Below are positions 28,495 through 63,305 of a stretch of DNA of 64,000 bases, one piece after another. The stretch comes from Apostichopus japonicus (Eukaryota > Echinodermata > Holothuroidea > Aspidochirotida > Stichopodidae). Both the position numbers and the translations under genes were made by a program. The notes beneath the pieces are model-generated. The model did no database searches. It had not been told where the DNA came from and saw nothing but the letters and a program-made list of their open reading frames with translations. The stretch lies in assembly GCF_037975245.1 (NCBI RefSeq), contig NC_092582.1, forward strand, positions 3,287,001 through 3,351,000. Reading direction: 5' to 3'. Each line of letters opens with the position of its first letter. Position 1 is the stretch's first letter.

Positions 28495-31400
28495 ATGACA
28501 TCTTCCTCGCTTGCAGCAAGATATGAAAACACATATGATAATCCTTTGCTCTTTAAGGTGAGTTTATCCTTTGTAGTTTGCTTTTAGCAATAGAACCAGA
28601 ACTGGCAGGATGATTATAATTTGCCTACCATACTACTTCTCTCATTTACTACATCTCTTAAGTGATTTTAATGAAATTCTGTTCATGTGAAAATCACAAA
28701 AGTTTGTAGCTTTCATGTCAAAAATTGATATTATTTTACCTTGTCAAATTTTAATAAATAGGCAGTGCATTAATCCGTCTCACTTTTATGGCTTACATTC
28801 ATTTTGGATGATAAATTAAAATATTAGTGATACAGTATGTATTCAACATACTCCTCCATTGTACAACAATTGTTTTTTTTTTTTGATCCGACAATTTTTT
28901 ATTCTTCTATTCATTCTTTCATGGCATCAGTCTCCTTTCCATCTTGCCATTGTTTGTTCTGTCAAATGTATTCATTGTTCAATCAACCAGCTTAGTCTCT
29001 TTTACTTGTGTCTTGTATCATCAGTCTGTTTTTCATTTTAGTTAGCCTGTGAAGAAGACCCTGCTAAGATTCTCTTAATTTTCCTTACCCACACAGGCAT
29101 TTTGAAGTACTTCAATAAGCTGTTTGTTCGTTTTTCATTTTAGTTAGGCGGTAAAAAAAAACCTGCTAGGATTCTGTTTCTTTTCCTTACCCACACAGGC
29201 ATTTTGAAGTACTAAGATAAGCAGTTTGTAAAGATTTTCTTATTCTGTATGATTACTTCTAAACCTTTATACTTTGAACAGTCAGAATTGGGGAGACCAT
29301 TTCAGAGAGGGTTTACCCTGCCATCTCCAGACTTCACATACGGCAGACCGAATGTAGCCAAGGACGGAGGAGCTGCAGATGCAGTTGCAGGGTGGGTACC
29401 CACGGCTGTCCAGACCATACCAAGAAAGGAGAAACGACCGGATAGAGACTTTATTGCTTTAAATAAGGCCTGTGTTGGTGCAGGGCTTGTATCAGCCCAA
29501 GAACAGTTTGAATACAGAGCTACACACGATGTCAGGAGAAGAGTAACAGATGAAGAGAATAATAAAACTAAACTCAAGCGTATTCCTGCCTCTATGACAT
29601 TTGGTGTATCAACCAGGTAACTTTTATTCTTTGAAGACAATCTCTATTTTGTTTTAAAAAATTTTTTTTCCCTCTCTATTCCATTTTTGGGGAGGGGGGG
29701 GATTATCGATTTGATCATCTATGTGTTTCATTAGCCTTTCTTTATTTTCTACGGTGGTAAAAGAGATTTTATAGGGCTCTACTTTTCAATATTGTGATGA
29801 CAAGAATACTACATATGCTGAGATGTCAAACAGAATTTCAAACTCTGCTCATCCAAATTTAAAGTACTTCTTGGATAATATCAAAATATCTATTTGGATA
29901 GGGTTGGTTTTTTCTTTTTTATGGTAATCTTTGGTGTTCTTAGTGTGAAATAATGACTTTAACTGAGAAAAGCAGTCTCAAGAAATGGACTTTGAACTTT
30001 AATGACCTAGTTTTCGATAGTCATCAATCATAAATCAAGAAACATCTTAGTGATTCCTCTTTTCATGTTGTTTTCTTTCTGCTCCAGGCCGTCCACGCCA
30101 GTATTTGATCTTTTGGAACACAAGTATCAAGATCGTTGGCTTCAAGAAAGAAGAAAATCCGAAATGACAAAACGGGAGAAAATTCAACAAAAGGTGAAGA
30201 TTTAACCGATTTTCCGTATTGATTGAATGTCTGCTTTGAAAGATATATGAGATGCTTTTGTAGTCTGTCAATACAATATTTCTGTGATAAGCCTATTGTT
30301 ATTGTGTTACAATGATTTGAAAGAGATGATAGTGAATGCTCCAGTGTTGTGCTTTTTGATCGAATGATCTAGGCCGTGTAAGAAAGGAAATTTTAAACAA
30401 TAATTGCTGTAATTTGCTTTTTTTACAGGCCATCTGGGATTTTTTGTTTTAATATACATCATAGAAGCTGAGTGACTATTTTGCTATATGGGCAATGGCA
30501 TTTAGAATGTACATTGTCAAGTTTTTTCTCTTTTAATTAGGTGTATGGGAATAAGGTGTATGGGAATAAGGTGTTATGGGAATACGGTGTTATGGGAATA
30601 AGGTATGGAAATAAGGTGTATGGGAAGTAAGGTGTTATGGGAATAAGGTGTTATGGGGAAAAGGTGTGTGGTAATGAGGTGTATGGGAATCAGGTATATG
30701 GGAATAAGGTGTTATGGGAATAAGGTGTATGGGAATAAGGTGTATGGGAACAAGGTATGGAAATAAGGTGTATGGGAATAAGGTGTATGGGAATAAGGTA
30801 TATGGGAATAAGGTATATGGGAATAAGGTGTTATGGGAATAAGGTGTTATGGGAATAAGGTATGGAAATCAGGTGTATGGGAATAAGGTGTATGGGAATA
30901 AGGTATGGAAATAAGGTGTATGGGAATAAGGTGTATGGGAATAAGGTATATGGGAATAAGGTATATGGGAATAAGGTGTATGGGAATAAGGTGTTATGGG
31001 AATAAGGTGTTATGGGAATAAGGTGTGTGGTAATCAGGTGTATGGGAATCAGGTGTATGGGAATAAGGTGTATGGGAATAAGGTGTATGGGAATATGTTG
31101 AAGCACAAGCTCCAAAAAATACTTCTGAAAGCTTTTAGCAAAAATTTTGGTTGATAGATTTTAGCAATTTTTAAGCATGCTAAATTGGCAACTATGCTGA
31201 TGACCCTTAACTAACCATCAAGCCTGGACTTTTCAGTCACATTTATACTGCTTTTCAATACAGGAAGTAAATAATGATTTTTTTTGTTCTCTCTTCCAGC
31301 AAAATCTTAACAAAGGCATTTATGAGACCAGAGCATCTTTGCTTCGTAAACACTGCCCTCCCGTAGACCAACCGCCTCTGTGGCAGATGCCAAAATTCCA

Positions 31401-34923: not shown

Positions 34924-37900
34924 CTGAAAATAGTAAAACAACAGACTTAAACTCGATTTCTGTAAACTTATATCACTATTACATACAACAACAAAAAAAG
35001 CCCCAAAACAAACTACATTTTTTTCATTTCTTTGAATATATGAATGATGCATGCATACAAAAACATCTGGACGTTGAGATACTTTTTGAATCAGACAGGA
35101 TCATTAACTGCTGCTAAACAGACATTTCATTTGCTGAAAATATCTAGAAGGGCATCTCAGTTTCAGACATTTATTTTAATCTGCTTTTTAATCATAACTC
35201 AGTGCAAGTGTTTAATCCATATTTTGCACTAGTATTCCATAATAAAATATCATAACAATACATTTAGTTAGCGAGACTGGTCCTATCAGAAACTGACATG
35301 TTTCCTATGTTTCTATGAGGTAAATGTTTATAACATGTACAAATGGTATTGTATTGTCATGTGATTTATTGTATTGGATACTGCACATTGTATTGTGATT
35401 TATTGTATTGTAGTGTGTACTGTACTGACCTGTCCATTGCATTACATTGTTTTGTTTCACTGTACTATATTTCAATGTATTGTTTTGTATTGTATTGCAC
35501 TGTGCTCTATTGCAGTACACGGTACTGCATTGTGCTGCATTATGTTATATTGTATTGCACTGTATTATATTTTAATGTATTAATTTGTATTGTACTACAC
35601 TGTGCTGTATTGCAGTACAAAGTATGCATTGTGCTGCATTATGTTACATTGCATTACATTGTATTGCTCTGTATTATATTTTAATGTACTGTTTTGTATT
35701 GCACTGTGCTGTATTGCAGTACAATATATTGATCTGTATTATATTTTAATGTACTGTTTTGTATTGCACTGTGCTGTATTGCAGTACATTATACTGCATT
35801 GTGCTGCATTATGTTACATTTTAATGCATTGTTTTGCACTGTATTATATTTTAATGTAATGTTTTGTATTGCACTGTGCTGTATTGCATTGTGATGCAAT
35901 ATGTTGTATGGTATTACATTGTATTACATTGTATTGCATTGTATTGCACTGTGTTATATTTTAATGTATTGTTTTTTATTGCACTGTGCTGTTTTGTAGT
36001 ACGTTGTACTGCATCGTGCTGCAATATGTTATATGGTATTACATTGTATTGAACTGTATTTATATTCTAGTGTATTGCCTTGTGTTATATAGTATTGTGC
36101 TGTATTCTACAGCATGAAATTGTGCTGCATTGTGTTATATTGTATTATACTATAATGTATCCTATCATCCTTACCTGACAACAGAATCCAAAATAGACTG
36201 CATGGTTTGGTGGAATTTCTTATTCTACAAATAAAGAACAAGGAAAGGAAACATTTAATTAATTTAAGAACTTGAAAGGACCATCATATTGCAAAGAGTT
36301 CTGCTCAATTAGACCAGATTGTCACTGTCAAGACAGTAATAGTGGATTGGGGAAAAGGGGATGAAACCCATTTTTCTTTTTCCAATAGCCATTATTAGTT
36401 CCCATCATAAGCAGAAGGGAGAACAAGTCTCTATAAAGAGCTCAAGGAAAATAAGAAGATTTACACAGAACCTCACTTTCATCTTTTGTAAAGCTTAAAA
36501 AAGCATTCTGAACACTTTGACAATTTCAACAGCAGAACCAACTTGAAAAACAAAATCATTTCATTCATTCAGCACTTAATGAGACGAGAGGTTCTTGTAA
36601 CCCAGGGGTGGGCAACCTTTTTGAATGAATGGGCCAGATATAAGGAGTGAAAAATTGACTGGGCCGCACCTAACCAACGACCAGCTGTTGATTTCAAACC
36701 TTTGATTCCGAGGACTTTCAAGCAATTGCTGTGTGTACTTAATCTGTATTCACAAAAACATATTGTCAATACAGTACAGTTGATCATTAATGGGGATAAT
36801 AGGCCTACCTGACAGCATCATTAGTGCCGATAAATTCTAAGCAGCTAGCTCGTTTTTTGTGATGATGTAAAATAGATTTATTTTTTAAAGTTTTCTTGAG
36901 ACATCTCACAGGCCGCAAAAAAATCCCCACGCGGGATTGTTAATTCTGCATGTGGCCCGCGGGCCGTAGGTTGCCCACCCCTGTTGTAACCACATAATCT
37001 ACTAATAACTTGCTGTAATTGGAGAACAATGACCTCTATTGTGCCTACCCAGAGAAGCTGAAGAAGAAAAACACAAAATTACGAAACCGAAATTGCACAC
37101 TACTGTTTATTCTCATTAATTCATTTGTACTTACTCTTAGATCAGCTTCTGTTGCTAACTGCTCCAGGGTTGACGTCTGGAATTTCTCTCTTATTCTCTG
37201 TTTCTTCATCCTATCTTCATCTGCTGAAGACATGTTACGTCCGTCTATCACCGTGATGGACTGAGCGTTTTTGAACGAAGAAAACGTGATCTCCTCGGTT
37301 GGAACTTTCTGCTCGATAGAAAAGAAAAGCATAAAAGTTGACGAGAATCCATACAATGTCAAACCTTCCAACTGACAGAAGAATTTTTTCTCTTCTGTAT
37401 GGTGATAGGGCCTTTCAATATTTGTGCACCATGCATTTGGAATGCCCTGCCACCCCGGCACTTCGTCTTTTACCCACCTTGGATTGTTTCAAGTCCCAAC
37501 TTAAAACTCATCATTTTTATAACATTCTTTAATCACTGATCTTTATTTGTCTTAAACTTGTTTATTTTATTGATTGATTGATTTGATTTTCTGACTTTAC
37601 TTTGGCTACTTTATAACCTTTCATCTTGTATATTACATTTTTACTTCTTAAGATTTTACAATAGTCCATGTTAAGTGCTTTGGATATTATTTTATGTAAA
37701 GCGCTATATAAATACATATATTATCATCATTATTATTATTCTCTTCTGTATGAGAAAATGTCAATTCAACCAAATCACTACGGTTAAAGAATGGCAAAAA
37801 TACAGATACAATATTTCATAGGTTTGTAACCAAAGCACAAATTTCTGTCAAACCATAAGCTGTTTAATTTATTTATCTAAGGACACAAACCCAATGCATA

Positions 37901-40900
37901 TATATCACATTTGAATATAACTTATTTGCATATAACACAATCGCATATAACATTTTGAGTATGTATGCTAAACTAATGGAGTGGATTTGTTTTGCAGTGT
38001 TCCATTTTTTTGGTATATAGCTTTGTAAACAATTTCATATGCTCAATGTTGTGACTTTTATTACTTCTCATAGTTTCATATAAAATAAGTCAGATTTAGC
38101 TACCTTCATACAGACAAATTTCCAGACACACCTTCAAATTTCACTTTGTAAGTTAGAATGTGTACTTCGAATAATGAAAAAAGCTTTATTAAAAATTTAA
38201 TCAAAGACATTTAACTGACATAACCCAGAGATGGGTGGTGGTGGAGTTGGGGTTAAGGTGGGGTTGGATTGGGGGGGGATTATTCTTACCCTTTGTGACA
38301 ATGGAGATGGATTTGTAGATTCCACTTCGATGTGTACCGATCCTATGTCTGCCTTATTACCAGGTCTCTCTTGAACTAAACAATATAAAAAAGAATGAAA
38401 AATTCTCATTTTATGTTTAAATGAATCACAAATTTTCAAAATACCTCTCTCTTTTAAAATCTCTCTTTTGATCTTGAATAAAAGGTAGGTTCTCACATAC
38501 CAAACTTAAATAGTACACAGGACAAAGACCGAGAAAAACCCACCTAAAATGGAATTCTTAAAATTGCCCAAAACTTGTCAATATAAGTCTAATAAATGAT
38601 ACATCTATAATCTCTACATCTACCATATCAAATACAGCTATACATCAAATATCAAATTATCAAATATATCTAATATCAAATACATCTATAATATCAAATA
38701 CAGCTATACATCAAATTATCAAATACATCAAATACATTTAATACATCAACATCAAATATCAAATTATCAAATACATGAAATACATTTAATACATCTAATA
38801 CATCGAATATCAAATACATCTATACATCTAAATACACCTAATACATCAAATACATCAAATATCAAATACATCTATACATCTCTAATATCAAGTAGATGTG
38901 AGTGCAATTAATTTAGGATGATCACATGTTTGTGATCAACAAATGACTGTTAATCATTCAATCATAGTTTAAGGGGTTTATAAAGGAACTTACACAAATA
39001 GAATGAAAAAATGGATGAACAAACAAGCCATCTGATGTTTACACTGACTTAAATACAGAACACACCTAGACCCCCCCACAAAAGAAGATTCTTGTTCAAT
39101 TCAGTGAGGATTTCACAGTAAATTATCCAATAACTTCTCTCTTTTTTTGCTTGTTACATATACTAAATATATCATATACCCATAAATTAATAATAAATCT
39201 TGATCTGACTTGAACCTTATGTCAATTCATGTTTAGAAGTCACCTCAAACTGCTGTTTTATAACAAAAGGCCAGAGTCTTGCTGAAGCGATTACTTTATT
39301 GTAAGAGTGAGTAAAGTCAGACTTTATCACCTCTCTCACTTCCCTCTACAATGGAGGGGGAGGGGAAGGGAACCATGAGTGACGGGTTTGTTAATGTGCA
39401 TGAAACACAAAACTTAGACAGTAACCCCCTCCCCCCCCCTCCTCCCAGCAACATCTGAATGTTCATCTCTTGAAATTCATCAGCCTGTCTTCCGATGTCT
39501 TGTTCCAGAAGATTTCAAAAATCCCAAAAATGATTTACAACATGGAGGTCACTATTTCTCTACAGTTAGATCAAGCACATTTACTTGCTTTGTATTTCGC
39601 TCACTGTCTTCTATTTGAGCATTTGCCAAAATATTAACGGGATGACTAAGACAACATGATTAACAATAGGCCCTACGTTCCATCAGTGTGCTTCAGTTTG
39701 TAGTCAAAACCACATATGTCAGCTGTTAATTAATTACAATCATTAATTAGTTAAGCATTCCTTGAAGGAGGAAAGTATTCTGAAGGGCTCACCATTCAAC
39801 TCTTGCCGGAATGGTGTAAGAAGCCTGGATACATCATGGCCGCTGTTGCTAAGGGCTTCGCAGAGTACGTCCTTCTGGAAAAGCAGTTCCTTGGGTATTT
39901 TGTCTGGTAAAGAATGCCTTCAAAGGGGGGGAGGGGGGGGGGGATGAGGTTTGTTACAAGAATTAAAAGATGAACGTAAGGAAAGATATCATATACACTA
40001 CCAAGACAATTGAGTGACCACACCAGACAAACACATTTGCATATGAGTTAAAATAACATTTTGTACTTGACGACAGGGCAGTGATAATTCCCTAAAATGC
40101 TTTTTTGTAAACGGTTACCAGAGAGTACCTTTGTTTAAAGGCACATGTAAAACATTTAAGGTGATATCTCTCAGGTCATACCAGATATTAAGGTCTAACA
40201 AATACCATGTCCATACAAAACTGACAACTTCAATACAATTATTAGCTCTATAATTGTAATTAAAGTGAAATAGATTCACATATTTGGCATTTATGTCATA
40301 TTTGAAAATTTGAAATAGGTCTTTTGAAGATTTTTAAGACCTTGAAGCTAGACAATTGGTGAAAACTTACTTATGAAAAAATTAAGGTATTAAAGATCTG
40401 CTTTGTTGGCTTCAATTATAGCACGCTATGGCTAGGAAAGTTTTATGATTACATAATTGACCTGCCACGGTAGTAAATCCACCTCAGGCTCTAAGATTAG
40501 CCTGCATAGCTTCTTAACACCATAAGGATCTTTGTGTAAACACTGTGTGGAAAAATGTTCATGTCTACAGTGTAGTTAATCATACAGCGTTCACACAAAC
40601 ACCCTCATACAAGAAAAAATATGTGGCAGGCGTTGCAGACTAATTGGTAAAAAGAGGACATTTTATGACCAAGGCAGGTCGATTACGTAATCTCAAGATA
40701 CTTTTCCATGATAGCATGCTATATTTGGGGTCTATACAGCAGACCTTTACGGTAATTACAGAAATTAATTAAAAAGTTCTTCATTTTGGGAATGATCATG
40801 CCGTAAGCATGACAACAAGACTCTACAGAGAAAACCAAGGAAGAATTATTGTCAGTTTGAAACAAAGCAACAGTGATCACTGCCTCTGAAATAGATCTTA

Positions 40901-43900
40901 AAACATATTTGGTTATTGAATTACGGCAGTGCTAGATTTAATGAGAACGTAGACATTGCCTGTCAGTACTGAAAGAGATCATCTAAATTAATCAGATCAG
41001 AATGATCTAGCACAGATAAGGTCTAAATTAGCTACTGTAAGGCTTCCTAGATCCTTGGGTCTCTAAACTAAACTTAACTAGTTATAATGGAATAGATTTA
41101 CATGCATGATTCCAGGTGGAAGGAATCTTGCATAATGTGTCTTAATATTTTCATGATTTTTACCTGCTAGAGTTACCACTATCTACATTGATAGGTGGAA
41201 GCAACTGTGGATATGAGTCTTGTCTGGCTTCTATAACCTAATATTTTTTCATAGGAAAAAGAGAAAAGGAAAAAGAGAAGGGTAAAACCAGCTTTTTGCA
41301 ATTAAATGTTCCTTAACATACAAACAGTACATTTTACAAGTAGTCTGTTACTTTTCAGAACATGTAAAACTGATTTGGAAATAATAAACAATTTGAAAAG
41401 GGTACAGGAAGTTTGGATAGAATGGATAGACTCAAACCAATGACCTGAGGACTAGCTCAACCACCTGAGCTATCCAGCCCTTTGTTGGTGGTAATACCAG
41501 TACAGTTCTTTCTCTACAGTGTGTGCAAGTCAGAAATCACTGCTCTTTGCATACAGAGTAACCAAGTATCCTACTCCATCATAATTTAATCAATCGCCCA
41601 AAAAGCAGCAGGAATGGTTTCTAGAGAAATTCAGCTTTTTATTTATTTATGGAAGTATGTGCTCGTCTCAAAAAAAAATTCTGAGCGATCAACCACAATG
41701 AGACATCCTCATTACTTCCAATACCGAACTAATGAACGAGACATGAAAAGAATGAAATTTCATTTTCAACATTTCGGCGCTCAGACACTTTGCATAGATG
41801 TACTAATCACATTCCAAAAGCCAATTGGAAAAAAAAATTCCAAAATTTTTCAACAAATTTTTTGGGCATTCTTTTGTCAACAAATCTCTGTAGATAACAT
41901 TCCAAATTCCAAACGAGTGTAAAAGTTTGGGTGTGTAAAGTCAGACAGTGAAACTTGAGGAGTAAACCATCATAGGGGGAAGAGACACTTACCGATGATA
42001 TGTGCTGGCACAAGGCTGGTTCTGAAGTCAGCTGTCCAAGCAGATTCAAGTACCTGGCCACCATTGCATGGATAGCACAACGATGATTAGTAGCAATATT
42101 ATGTTCAGAACCGAAAGCATACTCCTGTAGTACAGAATATAATGCAATTAAGAACACAGATCTGTAGAGTACTTACATATTTCTTTTTTTTACTTATCTA
42201 TGGCTTAGAATGAAACATTCATTGTTTTTGAAATATTTTCTTAGGATATAAAGTGGAAGATTTTATAGTTAGCTACAGGCAGTGAATAAAACATAAGGAA
42301 GACACCAAGAATGCAATACTTTTCACTTCATGAAGTATATATCAACAAAGCCCAAATTGGAAAGTGACACATTTGTGGCTCACACAATGCACCCTGTCCC
42401 ACTCTACAGAATCCCCCAACCCTTGGTGACATACCCCTCCCACTCCCCCTGCACACAAACTCCCAGACAATAGAGAAGGGTTAATTCCCATGTAGTTTGT
42501 TATGTGAAAAACATGAAGCAAGAAACCGGTGGACTAAAATCTGGTGACAATTGTCACATGGATGACAGTTGGTCCCTTTTTGTACCTCTTGCATTAAGCC
42601 CTTTCTGTACCCCTTACTTGACTATGTCAATTCTGCAACAATAAGTCTAAATGATGGATTGAAGGAATATATTATTACTAATAAAGAGCAAAACATAAAA
42701 TACGTAGAGGGAACTAACCTGATAGGCCAACGATAACTTAAACAGATCCACCAGCATGTCTTCTGAGCCAAGCTCAACACTCAACAGTCCCAGGGTGGTA
42801 AACAGACCGATGTAATTATTCTTACCATTACCGGGACACTGAATGCTCTTATAAAGGTGCCATATTAAGTCCTGACCACTCTGGATTATCATAGAGAAAG
42901 AGAAAATGAGAGTACAAAATGAGCAAAGATACTATTAAGAATTTACAGAGGATTGGTGAGCTTGGAATAGAAAAGAATATACCGTGCGGAAGCTGTGAAA
43001 ATTGTAGAAGAAGTAATCCATAGCAGAAATTTGTAAAATAGTTGCCCATTGTGACATTTACTTATAATACTAACAAAGAAGGTGAATTATGGATGATTAT
43101 TAAATAAGACAGATTGTTATATGCATCATTACTGGTTGAACCACTATTTACTGTTTCTCATAATTTCCCATCAAAATGCTATATGCAACAATGAATTTGT
43201 AGCGACAATCAGACAGGTTTTATGACACATTGGTTATAAAAACGGTCAAGATTCACGCTTCAGACAATAAATAGTAATGATTATGACCTAGACACTACTA
43301 GGAATCGAAACCATGGTCTTTCTGATGGATTTTGCTCATTGCATATTCATGACTAATGAACATATATTTTAATACATTAAATATTCATATCTATTGAATA
43401 TTTATTAAATTACTGAACTGCACACACAATTATCCATGCCTTCGCTCAAATGAAATGTTCTTGTTTGTGAAGGGACGTGGGTTATTTTGTTCATGCTTCA
43501 AACAGTTAATATTTCTGAGTTATATTTTCTGATAGATTTTGCTCATTGCATATTCATGCCTAATGAACATTTATTTATACATTAGATATTCGTATCTAAT
43601 GAATATTTATTTAACTATTGAACTCACACCCAATTATCCATACCTTGGCTCAAATGAAATGTTCTTGTTTGTGAAGGGAAGTGGGTTGTTTTGTTCATGG
43701 AAATGCACTTTCTATCAGATCATACTCTTCAATTTACGACTAACTGGGGACAACATTGTAAACAGTAGATTACAGTCAACTTTGAAAATAGTCTTTACCA
43801 CTAAATAACTTTCAACACGGTGTGTCTATCTGTCAGCTGTGTTTGGGAGATACATACTATCAATCAAGAACAAACATCATATCATAAACTAATAAAATGA

Positions 43901-46900
43901 TAATGTCAGCAACTAATGAATAAACATTACCCTGCTCATGAATGATATGTCCTCTCTGGATGGTTTTTCTACTTTTAGGTTTAGCTCTGATATATCTCAT
44001 ATATATATATAATGTCAGCAACTAATGAATAAACATTACCCTCCTCATGAATGATATGTCCTCTCTGGATGGTTTTTCTACTTTCAGGTTTAGCTCTGAT
44101 ATATCTCGTGGAATGTTTCTGTTGCAACTAAATTTCTCTGTGTTGTCGTGCCTGTCCATCAACGTGTGTAGGATTTCTTGGGCTATCAACCTGACCCCTA
44201 TAAAACAAGCAGGGTTAAAGTAAACAAACAAGCAAACATCTAATTAAATAAATACGTTATTATTGACTACTGATTAATTTTAACAGAAAAATTGTGTTTA
44301 GGATTTCTGAATTATCAATAAGATCCTTATTAAGGGTTGGGTGAAAAATTATACGATAAAATTATAATTCATAATTCATTCTAAGTAGAGATTGTATAGC
44401 ATTTAGCATATTCAGAATTCAAAACTTGAAAAATTGTTAAGCTGAATTGTGAATATTTACATCGTGATTATTAAAATTCTCCCTCTACTATCGAATGACA
44501 ATTAGAGTACTTGATTCTAATATCTCATCCACTATTCTAAATATTGGGATATATAACTTAAAAGGAGGGGATATCCAGGAAGAATACAAAGAAAAATACA
44601 CATTCCGAAAATTTCAGTGGAAAAACATTCTACTTTATGTTGCAAAAATAGGTAGAAATCATTACAATTGGCTAGGAGTGATTTACGAAAAAGTATATTT
44701 TAAAAAATGTGTCTTCAACTTAACAATGCTAACATAATATTAAACAAAAATATTTTTATACTAATTTAAGCATTTCAAGAACTACTAGAACTGGTCTTAC
44801 CTGGATCATCCACGATAGATACACTTAGTAACGGTTGAAGGAAAGATGCTGGAAATGTGGTAACCATGGAAACTGTGTGGTACTTCTTACCAACCTAGGA
44901 ATTCAAAATTGAAAGTATTGGTATCATATTTGAAAAAAATTTCTGAAAACGAAAAAACAATTTTCACAGGAATTAAAAAGAAAATAGCGAGAGAACAAAT
45001 TTAAGTTTGATAGTTTAACAGAGCATTACAAGTAAATATTTATCCCAACAAGTTGCATTTGAATAGTTTCCTGTTTTTTTTTCTCCAAATAACAGCCTTC
45101 AAACAAAATATTAGTCTGATGTGTGAAAAAGTCAAACTTACCTCCAGTAAACTCTTAAGGAGCATGTTCAACAATAGAACACCTCCTTCCCTAGAAAAAA
45201 ATCAAATAAATTAACAAATTAAAAAAAATATTTACAAATAAAATTAAAATAAAAGAGAAAGGTAAAATTGCCTTTGCTGAGAGAACAAATGTGTTTTTTA
45301 TAAAGGTCAAAAGTAATGATCATTTACTTAGACTTTGTTTTTATCTATTTTTATCCTACAACAATTTCACCAAGGATTGTGCTTAGATTCGGTCAGAATG
45401 AGATAACTTCGGGCATGGTATATTTTGCTCTATAATTCTGGTTAAATAAAGGGTGAAAAATAATTAAAGAAAGAGCCTCAGAATTTAGAACTGATGTTTC
45501 CTTCTTTCACTGGTTAAGTATTACTGTAACTGTTTTGTTTTTTGGAGCTGTACGGATTAAACGCGTGTTCGAAAGGAGTGTTAGAATATGACTTTTGCAC
45601 ACAGCAGCTACAGTGTCTACCAGTTGCAGCTATACATGAATAACACAGTTATGCAAACTTATCGTACACCGCCATAAGTTGTGTTAAATTTGCTATGACC
45701 TGGTGATTACCAACTCAACTGTTCAACGTTAAACATAACTTGTTAATTTAATCTTCACTTCTTACTTTAATCTTCCACAATTGCAACAGTAATATAAAAT
45801 AATGTCAGAAACTTCAGAGCTTTCCAAAATGAAACATAAAACATTATCATACATTTTTGGGACACACAAACCTCTGCACTGGACTCATCAATTTATAACA
45901 CATAGATCTCTTAGACTGATGGGGCTATTCAATAATGTATGAATAATTAAGTTACCTAGTCAGAATGACAACATGAAAAAAAAATAAAACAAGTTAGATA
46001 CTCACTCTCCAGAAGATGGCATTGCGGAGTTTATAGAGTTTGGCAGTGGAACTTTACCCATGATGAACATCATAATCTCAATCTTCTGATAATCTGGTAA
46101 AATGCTAGCAAATGCCCCTGAGAAGAAAAATAAATTAAAAATTGTAATCGACTTGAATTGTAGTAACCTGAACAAAAAAATCCATTGATTTTAGTTTTCT
46201 GTAACAATTCAAAAGTCCTTGAAATAATCTGAAATCTTTTGAAAGATGACAGCATAAACATCATTTGGATGTTGCTGTTTAAATCTTGGAGACTAAAAAA
46301 AAGAAAACAGAATGCTTATTTAGTACTGAAACAATGTGTGTAGTGTTCAATCCTGCTACACCCCTGCATAGTTTCTGCAAGTAATCGGTGATATGTGAAG
46401 TTTCAAATATATTTCGCATAAAATGGAAAATACAATCAGAAACTAGAAAGAACCATAGAACTATTGACGTTTCAGTAAAAAAAATAATACATATGCACAC
46501 AAAAAAATGAATGAGAAACATGAAAAGATTTGTAGCAAAGATACCAACTAAAAAGATAAACAAAAAATACAAACATTACAGATACAATTTACTAAACAAC
46601 TGAAAGATACTTACCCATGGTATCAATTATGGCTTCCTCAAATTCTATTTCTCCCTTTTCGTTATAATTCTTTGCCATTTTGGACTGGCCAGTAGACACC
46701 TTGCCACCAGCATGTCTCAGCTGTACCGATGTTCGGAGGTGTCTCAAGAGACTGTTGAAGATTTCGAGGACAGAGGAACCTGTTTGAGACAATAGAAAGT
46801 CAGATTAATACGGATAACAATAGATCTATTGTAGTTTGGTAGTTATAACATTAGTCATGGCTCAGAAGCATTAACATGATAACATTCATATCTTTAAACT

Positions 46901-49900
46901 GGAACAAAAATGTCATTTTGTCTTGTAGTAAACTATCAATAGAAAATGCTTTCAGGTTTTCTCTGTCGAAAACCAAATTCTACAGTGAAGTCCAGAATTA
47001 TTACGATTCAAAGCTAGAATGTGAAAATTGACATGTCTGAATCCTGATCTGCTTCATTCCACAAAGAGAATTCTCCTGACTAGATAAAGTTGAGTAAATT
47101 ACGGTTGACTCTTGCCACAGGGGGTCATAACTAACTTATGATAGTAAAGTTGTCTATCAGCTATGTACGAAAACAAGAAACAAACATCATCTTGTTATTT
47201 ATTATTTAGAAGTTTAAACACTTTATATGAGAAGCAAGTATAACAACCTAGTCCTAAAACACTTTGATTAGCAAATGTAATAAGAAGAGTTGTAAACAGT
47301 CACTCAATTTTAAGGCTTGAGTTGGGTCACATGCCATTAGTGTTCGTTAGTCCAGTCGTGTCTTTCACTAGAGTCACTCTACTATCTCTGTAGAGGAACA
47401 CCCAACAGACCCCACTTGAGCCATCTTCATCACAATTCACATTTTGAATTTTAGTGACTCCAGTCATGATTCCTCACGACATTGCTAAATTTCTGGTTGG
47501 AAGTTCTTATTTTTGACATAGAGAAAAATATGCCATTAGTAGCTCATTATATTTCACATGACATGTGGGGGGGGGAGGGGGGAGAGTAGGCCAGTAGGGT
47601 TGAACCACCTGGGGCCCATAACCTGTGCATTACATATAGAATACTAGACAGCTTCCATGCTCACCTACTGCTCCATCTACTGCTATTGCTACTGTGTTGG
47701 GGGGAGGGTGGGCCGGTAGGGTTGGACCACCTAGGGCAAATAACCTGTGCATTACACATAGGATACTAGATGGCTTCCATGCTCACCTACTGCTCCATCT
47801 GCTGCTATTGCTACTGTGTTGGGGGGGGGGGGAGAGTGGGTCGGTAGGGTTGGACCACCAAGGGTCCATAACCTGTGCATTACATATAGAATACTTGATG
47901 GCTTCCATGCTCACCTACTGCTCCATCTGCTGCTATTGCTACTGTGTTGGGGGGGGGGGGGGAGAGTGGGTCGGTAGGGTTGGACCACCAACGGTCCATA
48001 ACCTGTGCATTACATATATATACTATAATACTAGATGGCTTCCATGCTCACCTACTGCTCCATCTGCTGCTATTGCTACTGTGTTGGGGGGGGGGGGAGA
48101 GTGGGCTGGTAGGGTTGGACCACCTAGGGTTCATAACCTGTGCATTACATATAGAATACTAGATGGCTTCCATGCTCACCTACTGCTCCATCTGCTGCTA
48201 TTGCTACTGTGTTGAGGGGGGGGGGGGGGAGTGGGCTGGTAGGGTTGCACCACCAATGGTCCACAACCTGTGCATTATATATAGAATACTAGATGGTCAC
48301 ATGCTCACCTACTGCTCCATCTGCTGCTATTGCTACTGTATTGGGGGGGGGGGGGAGAGTGGGCCGGTAGGGTTGGACCACCTAGGGTCCATAACCTGTG
48401 CATTACATATAGAATACTAGATGGCTTCCATGCTCACCTACTGCTCCATATGCTGCTATTGCTACTGTGTTGGGGGGGGGGAGTGGGCTGGTAGGGTTGG
48501 ACCACCAAGGGTCCATAACCTGTGCATTACATATAGAATACTAGATGGCCTCCATGCTCACCTACTGCTCCATCTGCTGCTATTGCTACTGTTTCCTTTA
48601 AGATTTGAACAATGCTCTGTTTGATGTCCGTCGTATGTTCGTTTCCTTCGTCAAGGTGGAGTAACAGGAAGTGAGGAACCACGTACAGATACTGGGACTG
48701 TTAAACGAGAGTTAAAAACAAATATGGAACGATCATATCTGTGATTCATTCAGGAGTAGATCTGAAGTATATAAAATTTGCATTAGGTTTATTTAGAAGT
48801 AATAGGTATCCCCCTATCCTGCATAATTATAATAAAGAACCAATCATAAGCATGGTAATATCAAAGAATTTATTTTTGCAGTGGTACTGTTGCAGGAGCG
48901 CTGTACCAAAACGGCAACAAGTGTTTTGATTGCAGTTATGGAAGCAAATGATACTGTACATTGAGCTGAGGTAATTCTATTGGCATCTTTAACTTCAGCA
49001 CCGTAAGTGAGAATTTTAATGAAAATAAGTTTGGTTCCGAGAACTTGTATTTAAAATTGTTCACTTTTCTGTGCAGAGGCAAAGTTTTTGTATTTTTAAA
49101 AGTTTCATAGTTATCTCCCAAAGCCTGAGCTATTTCTATAATTAGTCAAGATAAAGTAAGGAAAAAATAATTGTAGGGTCAAGGAAAATTAGAAATTAAA
49201 ATAATTAAAATCTTTAAATTTTGTATGCTGAATTAAATATTTTGTGGTGTATATATTTAGGTGTACAGAAGAGTATTTGTTTGTCTTTATTCATATGTAT
49301 GACTTGATTTTTGACTTCACTATTTTGTTCTTTATTAATCTTATTTTACATCTCTCTTCTAACTTTATCACCTGTTATCTCCTCATGATGCTATCATAAA
49401 TATAGCATCTCAGAATGAATAATTCTTCTGTATCATGCTGTAGTTTCATAACTACAATGTACAAATATTTTTAGTTGCATCTGGCAAACAAGAGTGGCAC
49501 CGATTAAAATTCTAACACAATTCAATATAATTCAGTCGACTCGAGGCCATCAACATATTGAGCAGCGAAACAATCATTTCATAAAGAGATTCCCTTATGA
49601 CTATTCATCAAAACAAAACAAAACGTTAATTTTTACCTGCATGGAGTACATGACAACTTTAAAGACTTTGACAGCAAAGTCATTCGGTACCCAAAGGGTA
49701 TGCAGATCAAGATGCCTATGAAAAGAAGACAAAAAGAGATCGTAATTTTATTTCGTTCGAAACAGCATGAAAGATACAAAATAGTTCCAGCCGAGGAATT
49801 GATTTATAACGGCAAGTAGGATTTCACTATCAAATTTGCATTCTGTCACATCAGATTGTGTCTTATGCCCCGAATGAAGAGTGCATAATATTTCTCATCA

Positions 49901-59780: not shown

Positions 59781-63305
<3,525 letters not shown>

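Follow-up and report, generated by a model that had tools for sequence, protein, structure and literature searches.

Does a minisatellite that starts inside a coding exon provide its host gene with a series of alternative microexons, or is it a by-product of duplication that splicing normally passes over? The question is raised by the EFR3 locus of the sea cucumber Apostichopus japonicus, where the end of one exon recurs as a tandem array in the following intron. We analysed this array in a 64,000-nucleotide window of contig NC_092582.1 (positions 3,287,001 to 3,351,000; coordinates below are those of the window unless another source is named).

A human EFR3A sequence used as the query for spliced alignment placed 21 introns of a minus-strand gene across 57.3–34.9 kb; two of these (39563–38820 and 38792–37312) are doubtful and were left out of all intron counts used here (61, 114 and 153). 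The joined exons identify the gene as EFR3, the name given to it in an earlier note made from the letters alone: both Pfam profiles of the family score above their cut-offs (EFR3_ARM, PF21052, E = 6.5e-40, 135.9 bits, cut-off 27.6; EFR3, PF21072, E = 1.8e-8, 34.1 bits, cut-off 27), and yeast Efr3 (4n5a) is the sole solved chain matching at E ≤ 1. The host exon (48562..48697, minus strand), located by spliced alignment and supported by what the joined exons match in Pfam and the PDB, ends in GAAACAGTAGCAATAGCAGCAGATGGAGCAGTAG followed by GTGAGC. The alignment recovered the host junction expected by the earlier note, from 48562 to 46779 in phase 1, which leads into the next exon (46615..46779, minus strand; GSSVLEIF...), whose acceptor AG ends at 46780. 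Another EFR3 intron, at 39918–41163, has a nearly all-C real acceptor by spliced alignment (CCCCCCCCCCCTCCCCCCCTTTGAAG). SURF4 lies upstream of EFR3 and divergent from it, on the plus strand at 59792–63305, and alignment with a human SURF4 placed four introns in it.

The last 31 nt of the host exon (48592–48562, minus strand), with the true donor GTGAGC at 48561, constitute unit 0 of a tandem array of eight units spaced 122–137 bp apart (47564..48592, minus strand), found by sequence inspection and called by TRF at 47571–48592 (period 128, 8.0 copies, 89% matches). The exon end, its GTGAGC donor and adjoining intron are thus repeated seven more times, as had been claimed. Each unit comprises ACAG, 27 nt, GTGAGC and 91–106 nt of intron (donor included), so the duplicated segment crosses the exon–intron boundary, and the intron part terminates in, or just past, a C tract. 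Its head-to-tail units of tens to hundreds of base pairs make the array a minisatellite, and such a repeat lies far outside what chance would give. Exon sequence ahead of unit 0 reads GGAAACAGTAG; behind the C tract, the joints between units read AACACAGTAG in six of seven cases and AATACAGTAG in the seventh, and the intron past the last unit continues as C9-ACATGTC. A 152-base unit query against the accessible stretches of the genome matched eight places among the matches listed, all of them inside the array, which argues that the array arose in place and, among those matches, eliminates a transposon or dispersed satellite as its source.

Each of the seven extra copies (all on the minus strand) delimits a candidate microexon between an AG and a donor. 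Candidate 1 (48438..48464; AG ending at 48465, donor at 48437) would encode VAIAAYGAV. Candidates 2 (48309..48335; 48336, 48308), 3 (48180..48206; 48207, 48179), 4 (48052..48078; 48079, 48051), 5 (47915..47941; 47942, 47914) and 6 (47787..47813; 47814, 47786) would encode VAIAADGAV, and candidate 7 (47665..47691; 47692, 47664) would encode VAIAVDGAV. These translations (five, one and one of the seven) are those read earlier, and they reflect two substitutions in total among the extra 27-mers. The anatomy described as AG–27 nt–GTGAGC in the host phase is present in 7/7 units, each candidate being no longer than 27 nt, a multiple of three and free of stops in the host frame. The C runs ahead of copies 1–7 measure 10, 13, 14, 12, 14, 12 and 6 nt; a long poly-C tract, said to precede every copy, was therefore found before six of them (10–14 nt), with unit 7 having only 6 C. 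All eight AGs of the 31-nt exon piece share one codon position, the same as at the host donor, indicating that the seven in-frame copies descend from one duplication and are not seven independent coincidences. Phase and open frame are accordingly inherited from the duplicated exon end, and since just 1 of the 81 possible single changes in the 27-mer creates a stop, the open frames of the copies say little.

Splice-site strength was scored with matrices trained on 153 introns from eight genes of the A. japonicus genome (EFR3 19, CLTC 25, EEF2 13, SURF4 4, PRPF8 39, VCP 14, XPO1 21 and POLR2A 18), the matrices containing neither a branch-point nor an exon-length term. The seven copy acceptors score 6.5–7.0 bits and rank at the 19–29th percentile of the 153 real acceptors: 6.5 bits and 19th percentile for candidates 1 and 3, 6.7 bits for candidates 4 and 6 (21st) and 5 (22nd), and 7.0 bits and 29th percentile for candidates 2 and 7. 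The seven extra donors equal the real donor across the nine scored bases; that of candidate 1 scores 8.9 bits, at the 52nd percentile. Both kinds of site thus fall within the functional range of the genome, and the weak acceptors that the earlier note had named as one possible refutation of its proposal were not seen. By contrast with the copies, and as the note had stated, the true exon has no acceptor at its internal ACAG (−5.1 bits, 1st percentile). Training on 114 introns put the unit acceptors at the 18–28th percentile and the donor at the 52nd, and training on 61 introns put them at the 10–25th and 31st, the host donor, which does not differ from the unit donors, being inside the 114- and 153-intron sets and excluded from the 61-intron set. 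When C is scored as T, the copy acceptors fall at the 45–58th percentile of 114.

Of the 1308 AGs at the locus, 4–7% match the units in acceptor score, and under the 61-intron matrix four other AGs in the same intron outscore every unit, while the host acceptor of the next exon reaches 11.7 bits versus 5.0–6.1 for the units. Across 116 kb of intron, 61 AG–GT pairs lying 3–200 nt apart attain the quality of the units. The EFR3 array accounts for 13, seven of which are symmetric and open, and the other six, which span from one unit to the next, are all closed by stops. One clathrin (CLTC) array accounts for a further 31, including seven that are symmetric and open, each of 6 nt. Among the 17 pairs outside these two arrays none is symmetric and open, and on that comparison, seven here against 0/17 elsewhere outside the CLTC array, the EFR3 units are unusually exon-like. 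Spacing points the other way. The would-be introns between copies measure 95–110 nt, as against 164 nt for the shortest of the 153 introns in the eight genes, so in this sample the candidates are not separated from one another by introns of a length that the genome uses; the gap from the last unit to the next EFR3 exon is long.

Variation between copies was counted as the minimum number of changes per column, with gap columns and the C tract excluded. The AG, 27-mer and GTGAGC together carry 2 changes in 37 columns, compared with 26 in the 73 columns of the remainder of the unit (binomial p=0.0012). The difference is also seen for the 27-mer alone against the remainder (p=0.009), with either CpG columns (p=0.003) or the host unit (p=0.0016) removed, in Fisher tests on variable columns (p=0.0016; 27-mer, p=0.018) and in a linear 40-column window test (p=0.008); the coldest third of the circular unit, sought post hoc, gave only p=0.037. 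Eight non-EFR3 arrays served as controls, three of them with too few units, one with a single variable column and one, in VCP, with a self-overlapping unit set; five showed no signal of uneven variation (p = 0.19, 0.86, 1.0, 0.54 and 0.44), at low power and with the VCP units overlapping. Both changes in the exon part are nonsynonymous, and there are none at ~8 synonymous sites. Because synonymous sites are equally quiet, the low variation of the exon part does not amount to the signature of a coding sequence; it accords better with constraint acting on the entire splice unit, or with mutation being uneven, than with selection for the peptide. Conservation between copies is nonetheless a real if small point in favour of their use.

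To see how often exon edges are copied into introns, we compared 16-mers from the edge of the neighbouring exon with the intron, allowing up to 2 mismatches, in all 153 introns. Copies were found in six introns, or in seven once a CLTC 61-bp array is added, whose 12 units share only 8 exon nt and which was detected via TRF. Two of the six are in EFR3: the seven copies described above, and a single copy of another exon end at 43900–44107 (109 bp × 1.9), in which exon end, donor and some intron are duplicated and no AG in the copy reaches the 10th percentile. PRPF8 likewise contributes two. Its intron index 9 (L013:6506–7111) holds a 122-bp × 5 array with four extra copies of the acceptor together with 33 nt from the start of the following exon; the copied acceptors score 11.3 bits each, on par with the real one, and no donor in the copies is at or above the 10th percentile, showing that such decoys persist without making exons. 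In the other PRPF8 intron an exon end is copied once, with the donor of the copy damaged. The remaining matches are a CLTC acceptor with exon start, copied twice, and a POLR2A exon end with its donor, also copied twice, within a 173-bp × 2.5 array (intron index 2, L019:1826–2266) that contains no acceptor–donor pair at the 10th percentile. Among the six introns, checked pair by pair, the EFR3 array alone has a symmetric open exon within its units.

The CLTC 61-bp array (intron index 13, L007:9352–10000 and into L008) starts at a clathrin exon end. Its 11 intronic units consist of a C-rich tract, CAG (8/11) or CAT (3/11), AAACAG and GTTAGA, with donors merely 56–61 nt apart. The AG that touches the GT ranks at the 3rd–37th percentile, the one lying six bases before it at the 12th–29th and the donor at the 59th, and the units are possible candidates for zero-length or 6-nt exons. 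Placement of arrays showed no bias toward exon edges: of 25 TRF arrays with a period of at least 30 in 143 kb, 6 cross an edge versus 7.8 expected at random (7/26 if a 52-bp EFR3 array, dropped because it overlaps an unreliable exon, is included). The three longest C/G runs (14, 7 and 6) are all in exon-edge arrays, and run length differs between the 6 edge arrays and the 19 others (p=0.006, post hoc).

These observations qualify the central claim of the earlier note, that the minisatellite is also a microexon array. The copies are formally complete microexons with in-range splice sites, and to that extent the claim stands; it is weakened by gaps of 95–110 nt that fall short of the shortest known intron in the sample (164 nt), by phase and frame that are inherited, by edge arrays that occur generally and at a random rate, and by the four AGs that outscore the units.

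The anatomy suggests how such an array could be built. A tandem duplication would have started inside the EFR3 exon end and finished behind a C-rich tract of the intron; joining of its ends near a shared ACA would have brought the C tract up against the ACAG inside the exon. This single event would have created the acceptor, the C tract of the intron serving as pyrimidine tract ahead of an AG that the exon already had, and later unit-by-unit copying would have produced eight units. We infer that splicing ordinarily takes the original exon donor directly to the exon that follows, mostly skipping the seven copies. Inclusion of a copy at low level, adding nine residues each time, would be plausible but incidental, since the acceptor of every copy looks usable and its donor is median and in frame. 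On the sequence evidence we thus think it probable that the array is a blindly formed bystander minisatellite, normally skipped, with candidate low-level microexon inclusion. In support of this reading, capture of exon edges is common, occurring in PRPF8, clathrin and POLR2A as well, and explains the anatomy without function; would-be introns below the minimum of the genome sample and a host acceptor stronger than those of the units also count for it. Counting against it are the quiet AG, 27-mer and donor (p=0.0012), a result not expected of a pure bystander, and the standing of the units as outliers in exon-likeness.

Those same two observations speak for a working cassette, in which any subset of the copies would be spliced at a substantial level as alternative microexons, EFR3 would grow in nine-residue steps and allele length might shift the repertoire. 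Such a cassette could draw on acceptors and a donor that rank, among 153 real sites of each kind, at the 19–29th and the 52nd percentile, on seven symmetric open AG–GT pairs, on a quiet splice unit even without the host copy (p=0.0016), and on the occurrence of runs of at least six C within the last 30 nt of 3/114 real acceptors, two of them in EFR3. We nevertheless judge it unlikely and favour the bystander minisatellite, for the gaps between copies are shorter than any sampled intron, the two exon changes are nonsynonymous with none at ~8 synonymous sites, so that coding-type constraint is not seen, and exon-edge arrays are common in the genome. A wider version seems less likely still: that sea cucumber introns harbour a class of exon-edge minisatellites of which a subset with sense-strand C tracts would form ladders of splice pairs (seven AG–27–GT units in EFR3, eleven AG–0/6–GT units in clathrin heavy chain), used by splicing either as repeated microexons or as recursive sites of zero length, with proteins changing in nine-residue length steps through splicing and allele length.

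The array might instead affect the output of EFR3 and not its sequence, if seven decoy donor and acceptor sites slowed or diverted splicing of the intron and partial inclusion or intron retention lowered the mRNA. Identity of the seven extra donors to the real one over nine scored bases is consistent with this, as is the closure by stops of all six unit-to-unit pairs among the 13, but comparable decoys sit in PRPF8, CLTC and POLR2A, which are genes that need high output, and we hold the effect to be improbable. Least credible of all is the proposal that mutation or conversion is uneven along the unit and that this, not use, keeps the exon part low in variation. It would account for synonymous and amino-acid sites being equally quiet, and for the post hoc coldest-third test reaching only p=0.037; against it, the signal remains without CpG columns (p=0.003) and in the linear 40-column window test (p=0.008), and the five other arrays showed no such heterogeneity (at low power, with overlapping VCP units).

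Several known systems resemble the EFR3 array in part. The likeness to recursive splice sites, or zero-length exons, is that of the CLTC array, where in 11 intronic units a pyrimidine tract and AG are followed at once by GT; the EFR3 units differ in having 27 nt between AG and GT and in beginning with TAG, and a donor is therefore not rebuilt at the junction. The nearest published case that we found is an intron gain in potato through tandem duplication across an exon boundary (PMC4974935). In potato the duplicated segment spans an exon–intron boundary and inherits its splice signals from the parent, as in EFR3; there, one duplication gave a new intron that was detected in the gene, whereas the EFR3 copies form an eight-fold, wholly intronic array of candidate exons. 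Schistosome micro-exon genes (PMC10526429) share with the EFR3 units their very short exons (3–81 bp, separated by introns). In them a secreted-protein gene is built mostly of different short exons with long introns, unlike EFR3, where near-identical copies of an exon end lie 95–110 nt apart inside a single intron of a gene for a conserved intracellular scaffold. VNTRs of the PER3 type are likewise tandem units at a gene whose number can change, but the 54-bp PER3 repeat lies inside an exon, while the EFR3 unit combines acceptor, exon piece, donor and intron (PMC10632439). Among the matches listed, the titles and abstract openings of papers dealing with microexons, minisatellites, splice-site duplication, intron gain or recursive splicing described no microexon array built from a minisatellite of an exon end, and neither did those of papers dealing with EFR3.

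The locus is of interest as a case in which a single tandem duplication can convert the end of an exon, in one step, into multiple complete candidate exons. Should the copies be spliced, the protein lengths open to an EFR3 allele would depend on its number of repeats; if they are not, EFR3 together with PRPF8, clathrin and POLR2A would be a natural experiment in how the spliceosome disregards duplicate sites that are nearly identical. Such repeats also call for caution in annotation. Spliced aligners create false junctions between repeated sequences, the problem addressed by EASTR, and the PER3 repeat is among those that mislead them (PMC10632439); false junctions are possible at arrays of this kind, and short reads would mis-map at that of EFR3, where one starting within the 27-mer is compatible with all eight donors, save at the differences in units 1 and 7.

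Some further features were recorded. A Pfam CTD1 match (E = 0.0024, below its cut-off) and PCNA matches (E = 2e-5 summed over three repeats, with E-values of 43 on their own) were judged spurious. Translated with code 5, the mitochondrial COX1 has K (AAA) at positions where N is expected and M (ATA) where I is expected, a pattern that points to an echinoderm. Pieces of COX1 occur in a non-mitochondrial contig (C29:14745–31219), the full gene being on C35, and are possibly a nuclear or duplicated mitochondrial insert. Elsewhere in the window, a 15-bp × 37 array with strong GC skew occupies 30535–31095, and a long tract of GTATT-like simple repeat extends over 35346–36106.
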